Of a stretch of DNA of 59,910 nt, positions 1-19,899 are shown in pieces; the first letter of the stretch is position 1, and every line of letters starts with the position of its first letter. Both the position numbers and the translations under genes were made by a program. Below the pieces are notes generated by a model. The model saw only the letters and a program-made list of their open reading frames with translations, ran no database searches and had not been told where the DNA came from. The DNA comes from Bacteroidales bacterium (GTDB lineage Bacteria; Bacteroidota; Bacteroidia; Bacteroidales; VadinHA17), in assembly GCA_017882305.1 (NCBI GenBank), contig JADGPU010000007.1, positions 1 to 59,910 on the forward strand, written 5' to 3'.

Positions 1-78
1 AAAACCCTCCATTATTAAATCGAGCGCTTCGTCACATGGACAGAAGTACTCGCCACATTGCCGGCATCTTATATTCAT
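1..78 (-). CDS. Partial small Cys-rich (zinc-ribbon-like) protein, N-terminus only
   Basis: An ATG at 76-78 on the minus strand opens a frame that runs off the window start. The 26 visible residues begin MNIRCRQCGEYFCPC, giving C-x2-C followed by C-x-C, a spacing typical of small metal-binding ribbons. It lies 37 bp downstream of the RadC-like gene on the same strand and may be co-transcribed with it. The family is not recognised and the rest of the gene is outside the window. Confidence 0.5.
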   Translation of the reverse strand, partial: MNIRCRQCGEYFCPCDEALDLIMEGF

Positions 79-115: not shown

Positions 116-577
116 TTAGAGAATTACCTGATCCGCAAAGCTGAAATATTCTCCATCCATTGTTAGGATAATGTGGTCCAAAAGCTGTATATCCATCAGA
201 TTACCAGCTTCTTTAATCTTTTGCGTGATCTTTGAATCAGATTCAGATGGATTTAGATTTCCGGAAGGATGATTGTGACATACAATGATCCCAGATGCAT
301 TAGCTTTAATAGCTGCCTGATATATCAGACGAACATCAGTAACAGTCCCGGACAAGCCACCCTTTGATACAGGGAATATGCCCAGGACTGAATTTGATCG
401 ATTCATGAGCAGAATTTTAAATTCTTCTGTATGTTCTATTGAATCAGGGTCCCAATTCTCAATAAAAATATCATAAGCATCCCGGGAGCATTTTACTTTC
501 AGCCGCTCCGATGCTTTGATTCTGGTCCGATAAATGAGTTTTACCTCAGATATGGTAATCTGTTGTTGATTTTTCAT
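116..577 (-). CDS. RadC-like JAB/MPN-domain protein
   Basis: A 153-residue protein that is essentially one RadC-type JAMM domain. The metal-site signature is visible as H101-N-H103 followed ten residues later by D114, inside HNHPSGNLNPSESD, with an upstream glutamate pair at E51/E52. Full-length chromosomal RadC (about 220 residues) carries an N-terminal helix-hairpin-helix region that is missing here. Such short RadC proteins are typical of plasmids, integrative elements and genomic islands, where their biochemical role is unsettled. The start is the ATG at 577. Two terminator-like hairpins lie just upstream (601-670), so it is probably expressed from its own promoter. Neighbours are unknown accessory genes, which fits a mobile-element setting. 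Confidence 0.85.
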   Translation of the reverse strand: MKNQQQITISEVKLIYRTRIKASERLKVKCSRDAYDIFIENWDPDSIEHTEEFKILLMNRSNSVLGIFPVSKGGLSGTVTDVRLIYQAAIKANASGIIVCHNHPSGNLNPSESDSKITQKIKEAGNLMDIQLLDHIILTMDGEYFSFADQVIL

Positions 578-602
578 AGTAAAATTTGATTAGATTAATA
601 AA

Positions 603-630
603 ATAAAAAAGCCCGGTCGACTGACCAGGC
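603..630 (-). terminator. Rho-independent terminator candidate upstream of the radC-like gene
   Basis: On the minus strand an imperfect stem, GCCTGGTC pairing with GACCGGGC (611-630) around a short loop, is followed by TTTTTT and further T-rich sequence. It would end transcripts coming from the direction of the DUF6876-like gene and the hairpin-rich segment. Confidence 0.5.
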
Positions 631-643
631 TGATAGTTTTAAA

Positions 644-670
644 ACAAAAAAATCCCATGATTGAATCATG
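644..670 (-). terminator. Second terminator-like hairpin
   Basis: CATGATT (656-662) and AATCATG (664-670) form a short palindrome that, read on the minus strand, is followed by GGGATTTTTTTG. It sits immediately 3' (minus strand) of the long imperfect hairpin 678-847. Together with the terminator at 603-630 it marks the likely 3' end of a minus-strand transcript. Confidence 0.4.
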
Positions 671-1030
671 AGATCTAAGCGGAGCCGTTTTGCGAGATCC
701 ATCCATCATCCGCCAAATCAAGCGGGAGGAACCGAGAAATTAAGGCAAGGTTTATGCAATAACAAAGCCTGACCTTGCCGTGTTTTGAGGTTTTACATTC
801 CGTAAATTCCGCGCTTGGCGAATGATGATGGATGGCGCAGGCTCGCTCTACCCAAGTGAGGTTGCGGTTGCCCGGAATACCTTGGATTGAATTGACTCTT
901 CATGACGGGCAAAGGAAGCGACCGAACACCTTTTTACCAAGTAAATCTTAAATCATAGATCTCAAGTCAAGAGATCAAGAATCCACCCCATCCGGATGTT
1001 TTGGATGAGATGGTTAGACTGAATGGGATG
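650..1030 (-). ncRNA. Candidate structured RNA, hairpin-dense, no coding potential
   Basis: No credible gene lies between 578 and 1073, yet the segment is full of nested complementarity. The main element is a long imperfect hairpin, 678-847: AGCG/CGCT (678-681 with 844-847), AGCC/GGCT (683-686 with 840-843), ATCCATCATC/GATGATGGAT (701-710 with 824-833), AAGCG/CGCTT (720-724 with 812-816) and an apical GGCAAGGT/ACCTTGCC (744-751 with 772-779). A second hairpin, 855-928, has GTG/CAC, GGTTGC/GCGACC (one G-U) and TTGCCCG/CGGGCAA (868-874 with 906-912). A third is GATCTC/GAGATC (958-963 with 971-976). The minus strand is preferred because two terminator-like hairpins follow on that strand. It matches no RNA family I can name; transcription is inferred. 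Confidence 0.4.
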
Positions 1031-1073
1031 ACAGCTTAAATGTGCCTCAAAATGGCTCTGCTGGACACTATTA

Positions 1074-1442
1074 TTACTCCGATGGTAGCAATGCAATTCC
1101 ACCAATGACCCAGATTTTTATACGGTCTAGTGGGAAATTCGAGAATTCGATCCTTTGAGTTACAATAGGCTTTACACCTGAATCTTCTCTGCAAGTCAGT
1201 AGCCAGGAGAGGTCGCCTTTTTGAAGTTCCAAATTCCAAATCTGCCAGGGAGCATCCTTCACTCTTTTCTCAAGCTGATAAGACAGAATTGCATCAAACA
1301 GCCAGTATGCTTTACATTTCTCTCGAATAAAATCGCATCCATCTGTTAATAGAATAGGGCTTTTCCCAGGAAACAGGTGCTTATGGTATTTCTCCGTGCC
1401 TCTGAATTCCTTCAATTGTCTTTTCAATAAGTATGTTTCCAT
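1074..1442 (-). CDS. DUF6876-like family protein
   Basis: A 122-residue soluble protein with no signal peptide. The sequence pattern (FRGTEKYHKH near the start, LLTDGCDFIREKCKAYWLFDAILSYQ in the middle, then FPLDRIKIWVIGG and an LLPSE end) resembles the DUF6876 family of small proteins found in Bacteroidota accessory regions. Their function is unknown. The family call is from memory of the pattern and is only moderately secure. A strong terminator (1454-1494) separates it from the next upstream gene, so it has its own promoter. The hairpin-rich segment 650-1030 lies directly downstream on the same strand and could be its 3' untranslated region. Confidence 0.6.
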   Translation of the reverse strand: METYLLKRQLKEFRGTEKYHKHLFPGKSPILLTDGCDFIREKCKAYWLFDAILSYQLEKRVKDAPWQIWNLELQKGDLSWLLTCREDSGVKPIVTQRIEFSNFPLDRIKIWVIGGIALLPSE

Positions 1443-4117: not shown

Positions 4118-4233
4118 AAACCACCCCGTGGTTTAAGATTGAAAACACTCTTCCTCTCCTATTATTGGTGGAACCGCTCCGCGGTTCATTAAATCAAAAC
4201 CTCTGATCGCTAAATTAAACGCCGGAGGCGTTT
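4118..4233. repeat. Triple-hairpin repeat unit
   Basis: Three perfect 7-bp palindromes with 3-nt loops occur at roughly 50-bp intervals: AAACCAC-CCC-GTGGTTT (4118-4134), GAACCGC-TCC-GCGGTTC (4171-4187) and AAACGCC-GGA-GGCGTTT (4217-4233). The identical arm and loop lengths with different sequences suggest one mobile repeat unit rather than chance. The REP/RAYT type of element is a possible analogy. No transposase is nearby. Confidence 0.6.
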
Positions 4234-4299
4234 CATAAATCATAGAAACTGATGTCGACAACATGATTTGAATTGGATTGTCCGGTTTTGGGAGTGGGA

Positions 4300-4384
4300 G
4301 ATTACCTTCGGTGAGCTCGTCCCGCAGGTCGGGACTCGGTTCCTCGCTATCGCTCTGAATGACAGGGCAAATACGGAGTATAAT
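4300..4384 (-). repeat. Dispersed CATTC(A/C)GA-type repeat, copy 1
   Basis: Read on the minus strand this contains TGTCATTCAGAGCGATAGCG followed by AGGAACCGAG and a GTCCCG/CGGGAC hairpin. This is the widespread intergenic repeat often mis-annotated as a short protein. A second copy in the opposite orientation lies at 4448-4560. Confidence 0.55.
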
Positions 4385-4428
4385 GGGAAGAGGTGGCGAT
4401 TCGCAGGAGCGAATCGCCACCTCTTCCC
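4385..4428. repeat. Perfect 20-bp-stem hairpin
   Basis: GGGAAGAGGTGGCGATTCGC (4385-4404) is followed by the loop AGGA and then by its exact reverse complement (4409-4428). It is bracketed by inverted copies of the CATTC(A/C)GA repeat. There is no T tract on either side, so it is not a simple terminator. Confidence 0.75.
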
Positions 4429-4447
4429 CACCCTGACAAAAAGGAAT

Positions 4448-4560
4448 TGTCATTCCGAATGAAGCACAGCGAAATGAGTAATCTTCAACTCGATAAACGA
4501 AATGGGTAGTCATTCCGAACGAATCCGCCATCAGGCGGATGAATTAGAAATCTCAACGAG
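4448..4560 (+). repeat. Dispersed CATTCCGAA-type repeat, copy 2
   Basis: Contains GTCATTCCGAATGAAGCACA and, 60 bp on, GTCATTCCGAACGAATCCGC with a CCGCC/GGCGG hairpin. It forms an inverted pair with the copy at 4300-4384 around the 20-bp-stem hairpin. Confidence 0.55.
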
Positions 4561-4705: not shown

Positions 4706-7162
4706 ATGAAGATATCATATAACTGGATTAAAGATTATTTAAAGATTGATCTTGAACCTCCAAAAGTTGCAGAGATATTAACAGCTATCGGCCTTGAAAT
4801 TGAAGGAATGGAAGAATGGGTATCGGTAAAGGGTGGCCTTGAAGGGGTTGTCATTGGTGAAATACTGACCTGTAAAAAACATCCTGATGCCGATAAGCTT
4901 TCTATAACCACAGTTGATATTGGTGGTCCCCAGCCGCTTCATATCGTTTGTGGTGCCCCTAATGTCGCAGCAGGTCAGAAAGTTCCGGTGGCAACTATCG
5001 GAACAGTTGTTTATAAAGGAGATGAGAGGTTAGAGATCAGAAAATCGAAAATCCGTGGGGAATTATCTGAAGGGATGATATGTGCTGAAGATGAGCTGGG
5101 ACTTGGCAATTCTCATGAGGGTATAATGGTTTTAGATAAACATTCAAAACCAGGCACACCTGCAGACAGTTATTTTAAAATCGTAAAAGATAATGTTTTT
5201 GAGATTGGCCTTACTCCTAACAGGATCGACAGCGGATCACATTTTGGAGTTGCAAGGGACCTTGCTGCATACATGAATCTTAACGCCGGCATGGATCAGA
5301 AAGCTGTACTTCCTTCAGTATCAGCTTTTAAACCTGACAATAACAACAACCCATGTGAAGTTATTATCGAAAACTCGACTGACTGTCCAAGGTACACAGG
5401 TATAACTATCAGCGGTGTGACAGTAGGAGAATCTCCCGATTGGCTGAAGAATAAACTCAGGGCAGTTGGTCTCAATCCGATAAATAATGTAGTAGACATC
5501 ACTAATTTTGTCCAGAATGAAGTTGGTCAGCCCTTGCATGCATTTGATGCTGACAAAATTGAAGGGAAAAAAGTTATAATCAGGAACCTGCCTGAAAAAA
5601 GTAAATTCATTACTCTGGATAATGTTGAAAGGAGCCTCTCCTCACGTGATCTTATGATTTGCAATCCAATGGAAGGAATGTGTATTGCAGGAGTATTCGG
5701 GGGAATTAAATCTGGTATAACAGCCTCAACGAAAAATATTTTCCTCGAAAGTGCTTATTTTAATCCTGTTGCTATTCGCAAAACTTCAAGGAGACACGGA
5801 TTAAAAACTGATGCATCTTTCAGATTTGAAAGAGGTGCGGATCCGAATATCACCATTTGGGCTCTTAAAAGGGCAATAATGCTCATTAAAGAGGTTGCAG
5901 GAGGAAATATTTCGTCGGATATTGTCGATGTTTACCCAAATCAGATCGAAAATGTTTTGGTTGATATTAAATATAACAATATTAACAGGCTTATCGGTAA
6001 GAAGATTGAACCTGATACAGTAAAGAAAATTCTTGCCCTTTTAGACATTGAAATAACAAATGACGATGGAGTCAATCTTAAGCTTGTTATCCCTTCATAT
6101 CGTATTGATGTTAAACAGGAAGCCGATGTTATTGAAGAGATTCTCAGGATCTATGGGTACAACAATGTCGAGGTGAATATGCATGTCAATTCAACTCTTT
6201 CATATCCTGAAAAACCTGATAAGGAAAAAATTGTCAATATAATATCTGATCTTTTGTCAGCAAATGGCTTCTCGGAAATAATGTGTAACTCCCTTTGCCC
6301 TGCCGCCTGGTATGACCAGAACGACGATTTTGATAAGGACCAGCTTGTGATGCTGGCGAATCCGCTTAGTTCAGATTTGAATGCAATGAGACAATCTCTT
6401 CTTTTTGGAGGCCTAAGCTCTGTAATATGGAACATTAACAGGCAGAATCTTGATCTTAAGCTCTACGAGTTTGGGCATTGTTACTTTTATCATAAGTCAG
6501 GTGAGTTATATCCCAAAGCAGCCAATTATTTTGAAAAAGCCTCTCTCGATCTTTTTATTTCAGGGAATAGAGGGCGACAGAGCTGGAACTGCAAGACCAA
6601 TCCTTCCGACTTTTATAACATAAAATCATCAGTTGAAATGATTCTTTCAAGGCTGGGAGTTAATCCGGAAAGTTTATCTTCAGGTGAAACTGATAAAAAA
6701 TATTTCGCAGAGTCTTCAACTTATCTTTTTAACAATAAGATGGTAGCTGAGGCAGGACGGATATCGAAAAATTATCTTTCAAAATTTGATATCGGACAGG
6801 ATGTTTATTGGGCTCATATTGAATGGGATTTGCTCCTTAAAATGATTAAAACTCATTCCATTTCTTTCCACGAACTTCCCAAATATCCCTCGGTAAAGCG
6901 CGACCTTGCATTGCTTCTCGACAGGAGTATTAAGTTTGGACAGATAAGAGATATTGCATTCCGGACAGAAAAAAATATACTTCATGACATAAATCTTTTC
7001 GATGTGTATGAAAGTGATAGTCTTGGTAAAAACAAAAAATCTTATGCAGTCAGTTTCATACTTCGCGATGATCTCAAAACAATGACTGATAAAAATATCG
7101 ATAAGATTATGAATAATCTCATCAAGGCTTTTGAAAATGAACTTAATGCGCAGATAAGATAG
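4706..7162 (+). CDS. pheT: Phenylalanine-tRNA ligase beta subunit
   Basis: An 818-residue protein, the usual length for bacterial PheT, the beta subunit of the alpha2-beta2 synthetase that charges tRNA-Phe and edits Tyr-tRNA-Phe. It opens with MKISYNWIKDYL and an EMAP-like tRNA-binding OB domain (residues about 40-150, including HPDADKLS). B3/B4 and B5 domains follow, with RRHGLKTDASFRFERG typical of the core. The protein ends with an FDX-ACB anticodon-binding domain (YPSVKRDLALLLD to the end). The alpha subunit (pheS) is not adjacent within the window. The downstream macrodomain gene starts 3 nt after the stop, so the two and the next gene form an operon. Confidence 0.95.
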   Translation: MKISYNWIKDYLKIDLEPPKVAEILTAIGLEIEGMEEWVSVKGGLEGVVIGEILTCKKHPDADKLSITTVDIGGPQPLHIVCGAPNVAAGQKVPVATIGTVVYKGDERLEIRKSKIRGELSEGMICAEDELGLGNSHEGIMVLDKHSKPGTPADSYFKIVKDNVFEIGLTPNRIDSGSHFGVARDLAAYMNLNAGMDQKAVLPSVSAFKPDNNNNPCEVIIENSTDCPRYTGITISGVTVGESPDWLKNKLRAVGLNPINNVVDITNFVQNEVGQPLHAFDADKIEGKKVIIRNLPEKSKFITLDNVERSLSSRDLMICNPMEGMCIAGVFGGIKSGITASTKNIFLESAYFNPVAIRKTSRRHGLKTDASFRFERGADPNITIWALKRAIMLIKEVAGGNISSDIVDVYPNQIENVLVDIKYNNINRLIGKKIEPDTVKKILALLDIEITNDDGVNLKLVIPSYRIDVKQEADVIEEILRIYGYNNVEVNMHVNSTLSYPEKPDKEKIVNIISDLLSANGFSEIMCNSLCPAAWYDQNDDFDKDQLVMLANPLSSDLNAMRQSLLFGGLSSVIWNINRQNLDLKLYEFGHCYFYHKSGELYPKAANYFEKASLDLFISGNRGRQSWNCKTNPSDFYNIKSSVEMILSRLGVNPESLSSGETDKKYFAESSTYLFNNKMVAEAGRISKNYLSKFDIGQDVYWAHIEWDLLLKMIKTHSISFHELPKYPSVKRDLALLLDRSIKFGQIRDIAFRTEKNILHDINLFDVYESDSLGKNKKSYAVSFILRDDLKTMTDKNIDKIMNNLIKAFENELNAQIR

Positions 7163-18337: not shown

Positions 18338-18562
18338 TTATATTTTTGTTTTATAAACTGTTATTACACCATCAGGGCAAACCATAGCACAATTGGCACA
18401 GCCGATACACAATTCAGGATTTGCAGGAAATGCATAATTATACCCTTTCCCGTTCACCTCTTTTGCCATTGCGATGGTACCTGTCGGACAAGATACCATA
18501 CATACTTCGCACCCTTTGCATTTCTCGACATTTACTACAATGCTGCCCCTAATTTTTGCCAT
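18338..18562 (-). CDS. 2-oxoacid:ferredoxin oxidoreductase, delta subunit (2[4Fe-4S])
   Basis: A 74-residue ferredoxin with two full clusters: CKGCEVCMVSCP (residues 14-25) and CIGCANCAMVCP (52-63). It is the electron-transfer subunit of the oxidoreductase whose other subunits follow immediately. It starts 8 nt after the stop of the aminotransferase gene, so it belongs to the same transcript. Confidence 0.92.
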   Translation of the reverse strand: MAKIRGSIVVNVEKCKGCEVCMVSCPTGTIAMAKEVNGKGYNYAFPANPELCIGCANCAMVCPDGVITVYKTKI

Positions 18563-18570
18563 ATTCTTAT

Positions 18571-19899
18571 TTATAAATTCTTTTCTATTGGATGATCTTT
18601 ACTGAATTTTTTCAATCGTAATTCAAGTTCACCAAACTGTTCACGAGGAACCAGCGAAACACATGCTCTTAAACCATCAGGCCTTTCACTTCCTGTGGTA
18701 ACCAGCGAAATAGCACTTATTCCATAGCAGAGAAGCTGCTCAATCAATTGATCTCCTGACATGCCCGGATAAGCAATCGTAAAATAGAAACCATCGGCCA
18801 GAGGTTCATCATGGTCCCTGTCATATACTATCTGGAAACCATTCAAAATAAACATCCTTTTCATCTCCCTGGCCTTTACTCCATATTCCAACACATCATC
18901 CCGATATTTATAAGTTCCATCATTAACTGCTTTTAAAAGAGCAGCTAAACCGTACTGAACCGAATGAGAAACTCCCGCCGACAAACCATACAACGCTCCA
19001 AAGATAGCAGAATGTCCAAATTTATCCGTTGAATAATATCTTAAAAGGTCAGGATAAGATCTTTCAAAAAGCTGATCAGATATGGCCATTATGCCTATTC
19101 TCTGACCTGCATAGCTGAATATTTTGGAACTCGAAATTAGCATTATATATTCATCGGTGTAATGGGCAACTGTCGGTTGGAAAGGGGAACTGCCCGGATT
19201 TGAATAATCTTTACGGAAATCCATACCAAAGTAAGCCAGATCCTCAATAACGATAACATCGTATCTCTTTGAAAGTTCGCCTATAATACCAAGTTCTTCC
19301 TCAGTGAGGCATATCCATGATGGATTATTCGGGTTTGAAAAAAGCAAAGAGGATATCTTTCCTGATCTCAGGTGCGATTCAAGTTTGTCTTTAAGTTTTT
19401 TTCCCCTGAAATTATAAATATCAAAAGAACTGTAATCATGCCCAAGCATTTTAACCTGTTGCTTCTGAACAGGAAAACCCGGGTCGATAAACAGAGTTCC
19501 TTCTTTAGTCCTGTCATTTCTGTTAGCTACCAGGAAACTGACCATAGCCCCCATCATTGAACCAACGGTGGGAATACAACCCTTCGGATCAATTTCAATA
19601 TCAAGGAAGAGCTTAATAAATCTTGAAGCTTCATTTTTCAGGAGGTCAATTCCTGATATGTCAGGGTAAATGGATGCAACCCCGTTTTTAAGAGCAGCTA
19701 TTTCTGCTTCGATGCCTATGGAAGAAGCTGGAAGTCCGGGAACACCCATTTCCATCCTTATGAATTTAATACCTGTTTTCTCTTCAATTTTATTAACAAG
19801 GTGAACAATTTCACGTATGGAAGAAGCTCCCGGAGAGGGGATACCGCTAGTATTGGCCAGTGACTTTATTAGTTCAGGTGATATTGGAATACCATTCAT
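18571..19899 (-). CDS. PLP-dependent aminotransferase, class I/II
   Basis: A 442-residue fold-type I enzyme. SNPNNPSWICL (substrate/PLP Asn region), VIEDLAYFGMDF with the PLP Asp, and SSSKIFSYAGQRIG with the Schiff-base Lys are visible. It would convert an amino acid to the 2-oxoacid consumed by the oxidoreductase encoded directly downstream. Gaps of 15 and 8 nt to its neighbours support one operon. Amino-acid specificity is unknown. Confidence 0.85.
   Translation of the reverse strand: MNGIPISPELIKSLANTSGIPSPGASSIREIVHLVNKIEEKTGIKFIRMEMGVPGLPASSIGIEAEIAALKNGVASIYPDISGIDLLKNEASRFIKLFLDIEIDPKGCIPTVGSMMGAMVSFLVANRNDRTKEGTLFIDPGFPVQKQQVKMLGHDYSSFDIYNFRGKKLKDKLESHLRSGKISSLLFSNPNNPSWICLTEEELGIIGELSKRYDVIVIEDLAYFGMDFRKDYSNPGSSPFQPTVAHYTDEYIMLISSSKIFSYAGQRIGIMAISDQLFERSYPDLLRYYSTDKFGHSAIFGALYGLSAGVSHSVQYGLAALLKAVNDGTYKYRDDVLEYGVKAREMKRMFILNGFQIVYDRDHDEPLADGFYFTIAYPGMSGDQLIEQLLCYGISAISLVTTGSERPDGLRACVSLVPREQFGELELRLKKFSKDHPIEKNL

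Follow-up and report, generated by a model that had tools for sequence, protein, structure and literature searches.

The intergenic segment at 640-1030 of the window almost certainly belongs to a dispersed family of structured repeats, of which it is one copy. The window is the whole stretch of DNA that was analysed, positions 1-59,910 (59,910 nucleotides) of the forward strand of contig JADGPU010000007.1 (GCA_017882305.1, Bacteroidales, VadinHA17), and the segment lies in it between the stop of a DUF6876 gene (1074) and the start of a RadC gene (577). Tentatively, we read the family as a SPRITE/BOX-like mobile repeat whose + strand would be a noncoding RNA terminated by its own hairpin. A sequence-only reading of the locus had proposed a possible undescribed structured RNA, either independent or belonging to a UTR, with a DNA-level recombination hairpin as an alternative. 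The segment is indeed structured, non-coding, covarying and without an Rfam match; the single-locus RNA or UTR reading is unsupported because the element belongs to a dispersed family. The features of the locus are as follows (R1 is the covariance model described below).

1..78, - strand: start only of a small Cys-rich gene (MNIRCRQCGEYFCPC...), truncated by the contig end
116..577, - strand: short RadC-like JAB protein, 153 aa (Pfam PF04002, 1.8e-37), a common, non-constant neighbour of the element
610..631, - strand: T2, terminator-like hairpin some 33 nt upstream of the RadC start (terminator scan)
650..676, - strand: T1, terminator-like hairpin on the RadC side of the element (terminator scan)
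677..935, no strand assigned: the repeat element proper, the extent of the R1 match (254 bits); this copy is itself an R1 training sequence
679..846, + strand: domain P4, a long imperfect palindrome, folded on both strands, with covariation in consensus helices 3-9
854..930, + strand: domain I, the second hairpin, consensus helices 1-2, often retained in shortened copies
931..935, + strand: T-tract directly 3' of domain I, which may be the terminator tail of an RNA from the + strand
1074..1442, - strand: DUF6876 protein, 122 aa (Pfam PF21781, 5.1e-33), a common, non-constant neighbour

The non-coding assignment made earlier agrees with the reading frames, since only two ORFs of at least 40 aa (43 and 47 aa) overlap 640-1030 and none is contained within the window copy of the element. 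The minimum-energy fold of the + strand contains a long imperfect hairpin at 679-846 and a second hairpin at 854-930, within two bases of the claimed 678-847 and 855-928; a side hairpin at 792-806, which corresponds to consensus helix 7, is absent from this fold. The + strand of 677-940 has a minimum free energy (MFE) of -99.3 kcal/mol (z -4.5; matched by 0 of 200 shuffles) and the - strand one of -90.7 kcal/mol (z -3.4; 1 of 200). On the - strand of this copy the long hairpin forms and the second hairpin is lost to alternative pairing. Over longer segments, z was -4.9 for the + strand of 640-1030 and -6.7 for the - strand of 600-1030, which includes T1 and T2.

A terminator scan of 400-1200 gave four sites compared to 0.9 in shuffles. 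It recovered the two minus-strand terminator-like hairpins noticed earlier (610-631 and 650-676) and the proposed third hairpin at 958-976, and added a further hairpin at 984-998; the latter two belong to the 3' flank of DUF6876 and not to the conserved element. The T-tract at 931-935 after domain I was not listed by the scan, which has a loop limit of 8 bases; with its internal loops and large apical loop, domain I does not resemble a compact terminator. No Bacteroidetes-type promoter was recognised by eye on the + strand, a sigma-70 scan of the window gave chance numbers, and a tRNA/tmRNA search of the window found none.

Rfam release 15 gave no match at the gathering cut-off for the window or for five related loci. 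A relaxed search of window positions 400-1200 gave 13 weak matches, nothing convincing and none named radC; the best, anti-hemB (E 0.002), reached half its cut-off and lay over the terminators. A narrow search of the literature on structured Bacteroidales RNAs, DUF6876, radC motifs and Bacteroidetes attC sites found no description of the element, which may be described elsewhere, and the literature on palindromic intergenic repeats concerned mostly known MITE, REP and other repeat families. In our judgement, bacterial structured elements this large, covarying to this extent and without an Rfam family, are uncommon.

The repeat family and its fold

A DNA search of 98 genomes, the element's own included, found copies in 11, all of the same genus. 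Eighteen complete copies with a mean identity of 64% were aligned (alignment A1) and used to build R1. At E 0.01, R1 gave 71 matches in 24 of the 62 genomes of the genus, with a maximum of 16 per genome, so that homologues extend beyond close strains and the many intergenic copies of a MITE or other dispersed repeat are present. At least 138 bits was reached by 33 of the 71 matches, 18 of which are the training set; nine scored below 30 bits and may be chance, and genomes G011, G019 and G030 hold only such matches.

The family has a narrow range in the genomes sampled. A class sample of 295 genomes yielded the own genome and three marginal R1 hits (E 0.002-0.005), and a phylum sample of 395 genomes at E 0.001 yielded the own genome only (0 of 394 others); the two samples overlap, and as 5-6 candidates per genome were scored after a loose prefilter, distant copies may be missed. 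A scan of 84,980 species genomes with a strict pattern, one that misses many known copies, returned 17 stretches. Bacteroidales MAGs account for 14 of these, 10 of which bear the names of fen isolates; HyVt-32, a hydrothermal Bacteroidetes MAG, holds two, and the last is an apparent chance hit. The full copy in HyVt-32 (L100) scored 170 bits with R1, and a search of that genome gave three R1 matches. This last hit, in a deltaproteobacterium (L103), was rejected as coding-looking DNA without a covariance-model match. Distant blastn searches of plasmid and phage collections at E 1e-5 gave zero matches, as did the pattern scan of viral contigs.

The core of the element is about 265 bp, and the longest-conserved type B copies reach about 370-440 bp by the limits of similarity. 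Here types A, B and C are our own grouping, in which A and C are mostly RadC/DUF6876-type copies with divergent relatives and B is the remainder. By eye, T1 was found in about 12 of 20 aligned type A and C copies and a T2-like hairpin in most of the 20. Many homologues are shortened repeat copies, retaining domain I only or missing most of P4 (by eye), and to this extent the concern that homologues would be degraded repeats was borne out; a tally of shortened copies is an unfair measure because R1 may favour copies that bear domain I. In L071, L074, L076, L077 and L040 an extra palindromic insert (AATCAG...CTGATTGAACCTGCATG) was seen by eye within the long stem, forming nested repeats. Several copies are seen near contig ends, which the element's repeat nature may explain.

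The fold of the family is kept by compensatory changes. RNAalifold on A1 predicted 59 pairs, and double changes were present in 44 of them compared to 22.7 +/- 2.6 in shuffles, with 0 of 500 shuffles as high; the copies are related, and p values therefore overstate their independence. The covarying helices that a structured noncoding RNA calls for, and on which the sequence-only reading depended, are thus present. With the A1 structure held fixed, 92.2% of 1054 cells in the 18 copies were paired, compared to 29.6-41.5% with slid partners, a contrast that is partly expected because the structure was derived from the same alignment.

Which strand is folded

RNA helices tolerate G-U pairs but not A-C pairs, and an A-C pair on one strand is a G-U pair on the other. 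RNase P RNA of the same genus, found in 29 of 31 genomes, was used as a control, with 28 sequences in the first wobble count and the first 19 of these in the strand-neutral count and the energy test. For pairs predicted on the - strand, the element had 56 G-U and 44 A-C pairs and RNase P 288 and 29; for pairs predicted on the + strand, the element had 61 and 31. The strand-neutral count was restricted to pairs common to the predictions for both strands in 31 of the 33 strong copies (G041C60 and G021C221 were excluded for their divergent left parts). Read on the + strand, this count gave 74 G-U and 42 A-C for the element compared to 78 and 14 for RNase P. The excess is modest (39 vs 23 pair positions, sign p 0.056) and weaker than that of RNase P; by subset, the G-U:A-C cells were 17:4 in A, 11:7 in B and 26:17 in C.

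Folding energy gave a clearer preference for the strand antisense to the left-hand gene. The MFE of the + strand was lower in 29 of 31 copies with RNA parameters and in 31 of 31 with DNA parameters, and the sense strand of RNase P was lower in 19 of 19. With RNA parameters the + strand was preferred in 7 of 8 copies of subset A, 11 of 11 of B and 11 of 12 of C. Domain I alone showed no preference with RNA parameters (+ strand lower in 16 of 31) and was lower on the + strand in 23 of 31 with DNA parameters; its P2 helix was formed in 28 of 31 copies on the + strand and in 30 of 31 on the - strand. Taken together, the folding energies and, to a weak degree, the wobble counts point to the + strand without proving it, and we consider it likely that this is the strand under selection. 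The minus strand, taken earlier as the folded one, fares worse on both counts, with the modest wobble asymmetry pointing the same way as the energies. We lean, with some reserve, towards the selected strand acting as RNA rather than as single-stranded DNA.

The same data bear on whether any folded strand is functional. In a selfish or decaying palindromic repeat, template switching during replication could match the two arms and produce double changes without selection. The many shortened copies, often without most of P4 (by eye), the nested palindromes and a G-U/A-C asymmetry below the RNase P level are all consistent with such a repeat; the strand preference shared by subsets A, B and C and the strong orientation bias relative to genes, described next, argue against it, and we regard it as improbable.

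Placement, ends and mobility

Neighbour orientations were counted from ORFs of at least 90 aa around 65 copies. The left neighbour was co-oriented in 52 of 60 copies (p 5e-9), and lay within 100 nt in 33 of 60, where it was co-oriented in 31 of 33; right neighbours were co-oriented in 42 of 54. The element sits after genes in one prevailing orientation, beside genes that differ among copies. Left neighbours include DUF6876, Fib_succ_major, TPR and tyrosine recombinase genes (a Pfam check covered one Fib_succ_major, one TPR and two tyrosine recombinase genes), and right neighbours include RadC, the small Cys-rich gene and others. Type B copies adjoin varied genes without an obvious link to transfer (by eye).

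A special link to RadC and DUF6876, as the sequence-only reading had envisaged, does not hold, since many copies adjoin other genes. The element is within 1 kb upstream of 13 of the 47 RadC matches whose open frames are shorter than 215 aa (counted by hand in 60 genomes at E 1e-30), so the RadC link is frequent, not general. A small Cys-rich gene with a CGEYFCPC motif was observed after RadC, or directly after the element where RadC is absent (window, L008, L009 and L013); the genes directly after the element in L009 and L013 resemble window 1..78, and a Pfam search with the L013 protein gave no match.

For the ends of the element, 65 of the 71 matches were examined (six were left out) and 59 were scored. 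A T-rich stretch follows domain I, with T at positions +1 to +5 in 47, 31, 47, 44 and 37 of the 59 copies; in copies such as L004, L005 and L050 it is weak. It is usually followed by CCTGG on the + strand; the commonest form in the family is ACCTGG, and the window copy has ACCAAG. The left end is not sharp, and CCAGG is absent from several copies. In three genomes for each gene type, Fib_succ_major stops with the element had CCAGG in 4 of 6 cases and TPR stops with the element in 4 of 5. Where the element was absent in these genomes, ACCAGG[TG][AT]A was lacking within 60 bases of 12 of 12 Fib_succ_major stops and from 20 of 21 TPR stops, the single case being inside the next gene; looser CAGG strings do occur at stops without the element. 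On these sequence comparisons the motif most likely travels with the element and belongs to it, not to the gene. Similarity mostly begins 8-20 bases before the border; in the longer type B copies it persists for 90-160 bases to the right of the core, and for less in others. A pairing of CCAGG with T2 as an anti-terminator was considered and dropped, as it fails in several copies (by eye).

Placement and terminators also bear on a role for the minus strand, in which the element would be the 3' UTR or terminator of the upstream gene, or a RadC leader, ending in T1/T2. The co-oriented left gene, the minus-strand location of T1 and T2, the z of -6.7 for the minus fold of 600-1030 that includes them, and a P2 helix that 30 of 31 copies form on that strand are what such a role would predict. 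Against it, the + strand gives the better core fold in 29 of 31 copies, domain I is not formed on the minus strand of the window copy, neighbours vary among copies, and no terminator was detected at the right-hand hairpin in the two type B copies scanned. We judge this role distinctly unlikely. The same two type B copies indicate that two-way insulation is not general as far as tested. In type B copies (e.g. G006C73, G028C156 and G053C224) a promoter-like motif was seen by eye about 150-200 bases past the right end, directed toward the right-hand gene; with TTG, about 19 bases and TAAATTTG or close, it is presumably of the Bacteroidetes type.

Signs of known mobility mechanisms were sought in the flanks and in the host genomes. 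In 18 type A and C and 19 type B copies, the longest inverted match between the left flank and the 260 bases to the right was no longer than in mismatched copies, and neither was the longest direct match in the same stretches, giving no terminal inverted repeat or target-site duplication there; repeats beyond 260 bases to the right of the core would be missed. Among 60 genomes, some of them incomplete, the integron integrase profile TIGR02249 was above its cut-off in none, weaker tyrosine-recombinase matches occurred in all 60, and Y1_Tnp occurred in 51. Y1_Tnp was absent from the carriers G026 (two element matches), G034 (three) and G030 (one weak), and G041, with 16 element matches, had a single partial Y1_Tnp. 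Genome profile searches thus lend no support to the integron integrase or the Y1 transposase as movers. In G009:C80 (L092), two copies (1644-1911 and 18450-18716) lie in direct orientation about 16.5 kb apart, and genes for an IS21-type transposase, a type ISP restriction-modification system and a tyrosine recombinase were observed between them.

A single-stranded-DNA hairpin, serving either recombination in the manner of attC or conjugal entry as an F-plasmid Frpo-type promoter in RadC-bearing islands, would fit the placement and the strand equally well as the RNA reading. The element lies after stops and is co-oriented with the left gene; the complementary strand folds better with DNA parameters too (31 of 31); and differing left (DUF6876, TPR, Fib_succ_major, tyrosine recombinase) and right (RadC, Cys-rich, others) neighbours are joined at it. 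These points are set against the integrase result (0 of 60 above cut-off, weaker tyrosine-recombinase matches in all 60), the lack of arrays of three or more sites in the loci examined and of GTTRRRY/RYYYAAC boxes at the element ends as judged by eye, the varied type B neighbours with no obvious transfer link, and a left end that is not sharp, several copies having no CCAGG. On balance we think a DNA hairpin of this kind unlikely.

Possible mode of action and relation to known systems

Returning to the SPRITE/BOX-like noncoding RNA, we infer that the element may be transcribed, terminated and mobile. The functional molecule would be a + strand noncoding RNA with the long stem at 679-846 followed by the hairpin at 854-930, and this hairpin together with the T-tract at 931-935 would form its 3' end. 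In the window copy, the minus-strand T1 and T2 stand at the opposite end, so that the element may in addition keep the neighbouring transcripts apart. It encodes no protein in the window copy. A more far-reaching proposal, somewhat unlikely as a whole, is that a mobile large noncoding RNA, or a folded single-strand DNA site, is placed repeatedly after stops in one orientation, with the folded strand antisense to the gene and terminating in a hairpin and T-tract of its own; it would let modules of genes, RadC/DUF6876 islands for example, join at its edge through a mechanism independent of terminal inverted repeats, integron integrase and Y1 transposase.

Several systems resemble the element in part. 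In integrons, attC sites lie after stops, co-oriented with the gene, have a folded strand complementary to the coding strand and keep structure more than sequence. The element is similar in these respects, the + strand being its probable folded strand, and differs in having no integron integrase above cut-off, no arrays seen, two domains of about 265 bases and no R boxes apparent by eye. Frpo of F-like plasmids is a large folded single-strand promoter region on mobile DNA; some copies of the element likewise adjoin RadC-bearing, recombinase-bearing regions, whereas many lie beside genes with no obvious transfer link. The radC RNA motif is a structured, non-coding region preceding a radC-like gene, and so is the element in the window, but the element is not restricted to radC and matches no Rfam family at gathering score. 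A DGR, a retron, a group II intron and a TnpB/IscB omega-RNA were also considered, on general grounds, and not adopted.

Dispersed repeats offer further parallels. In the review PMC10969869, SPRITE, BOX and RUP of Streptococcus pneumoniae are short dispersed intergenic stem-loop elements, SPRITE being terminator-like, that are inserted into one another. The element agrees with this account in being short, dispersed and intergenic, with stable stem-loops and nested insertions; it occurs in a different phylum, differs in its covariation across subfamilies and its strong post-stop orientation bias, and is likened to them by description, not by sequence. The same review describes bacterial MITEs such as QMITE2 as dispersed and mostly intergenic, with transcripts predicted as long hairpins (PMC10969869). 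The element matches that description in dispersal, mostly intergenic position and long hairpins, and, unlike MITEs, lacks both terminal inverted repeats and target duplications over the stretches compared.

The 31 nearly complete natural variants and many shortened ones make function testable by comparison. The element could show how a repeat that carries no genes ends up downstream of genes with a fixed orientation, and which form is active, RNA or folded single-stranded DNA.

Two minor observations concern the surroundings of the family. Window positions 4133-4531, between mobile-looking genes and a pheT-like gene at 4706, may be another repeat or mobile DNA (by eye). The TPR genes ending in HERVRKWLEE or similar (L170, L176, L181 and others) are expanded, three genomes holding 26 matches. 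Downstream of several of them are genes that begin '...GYEYDIFISYR' and by eye resemble TIR-domain genes.
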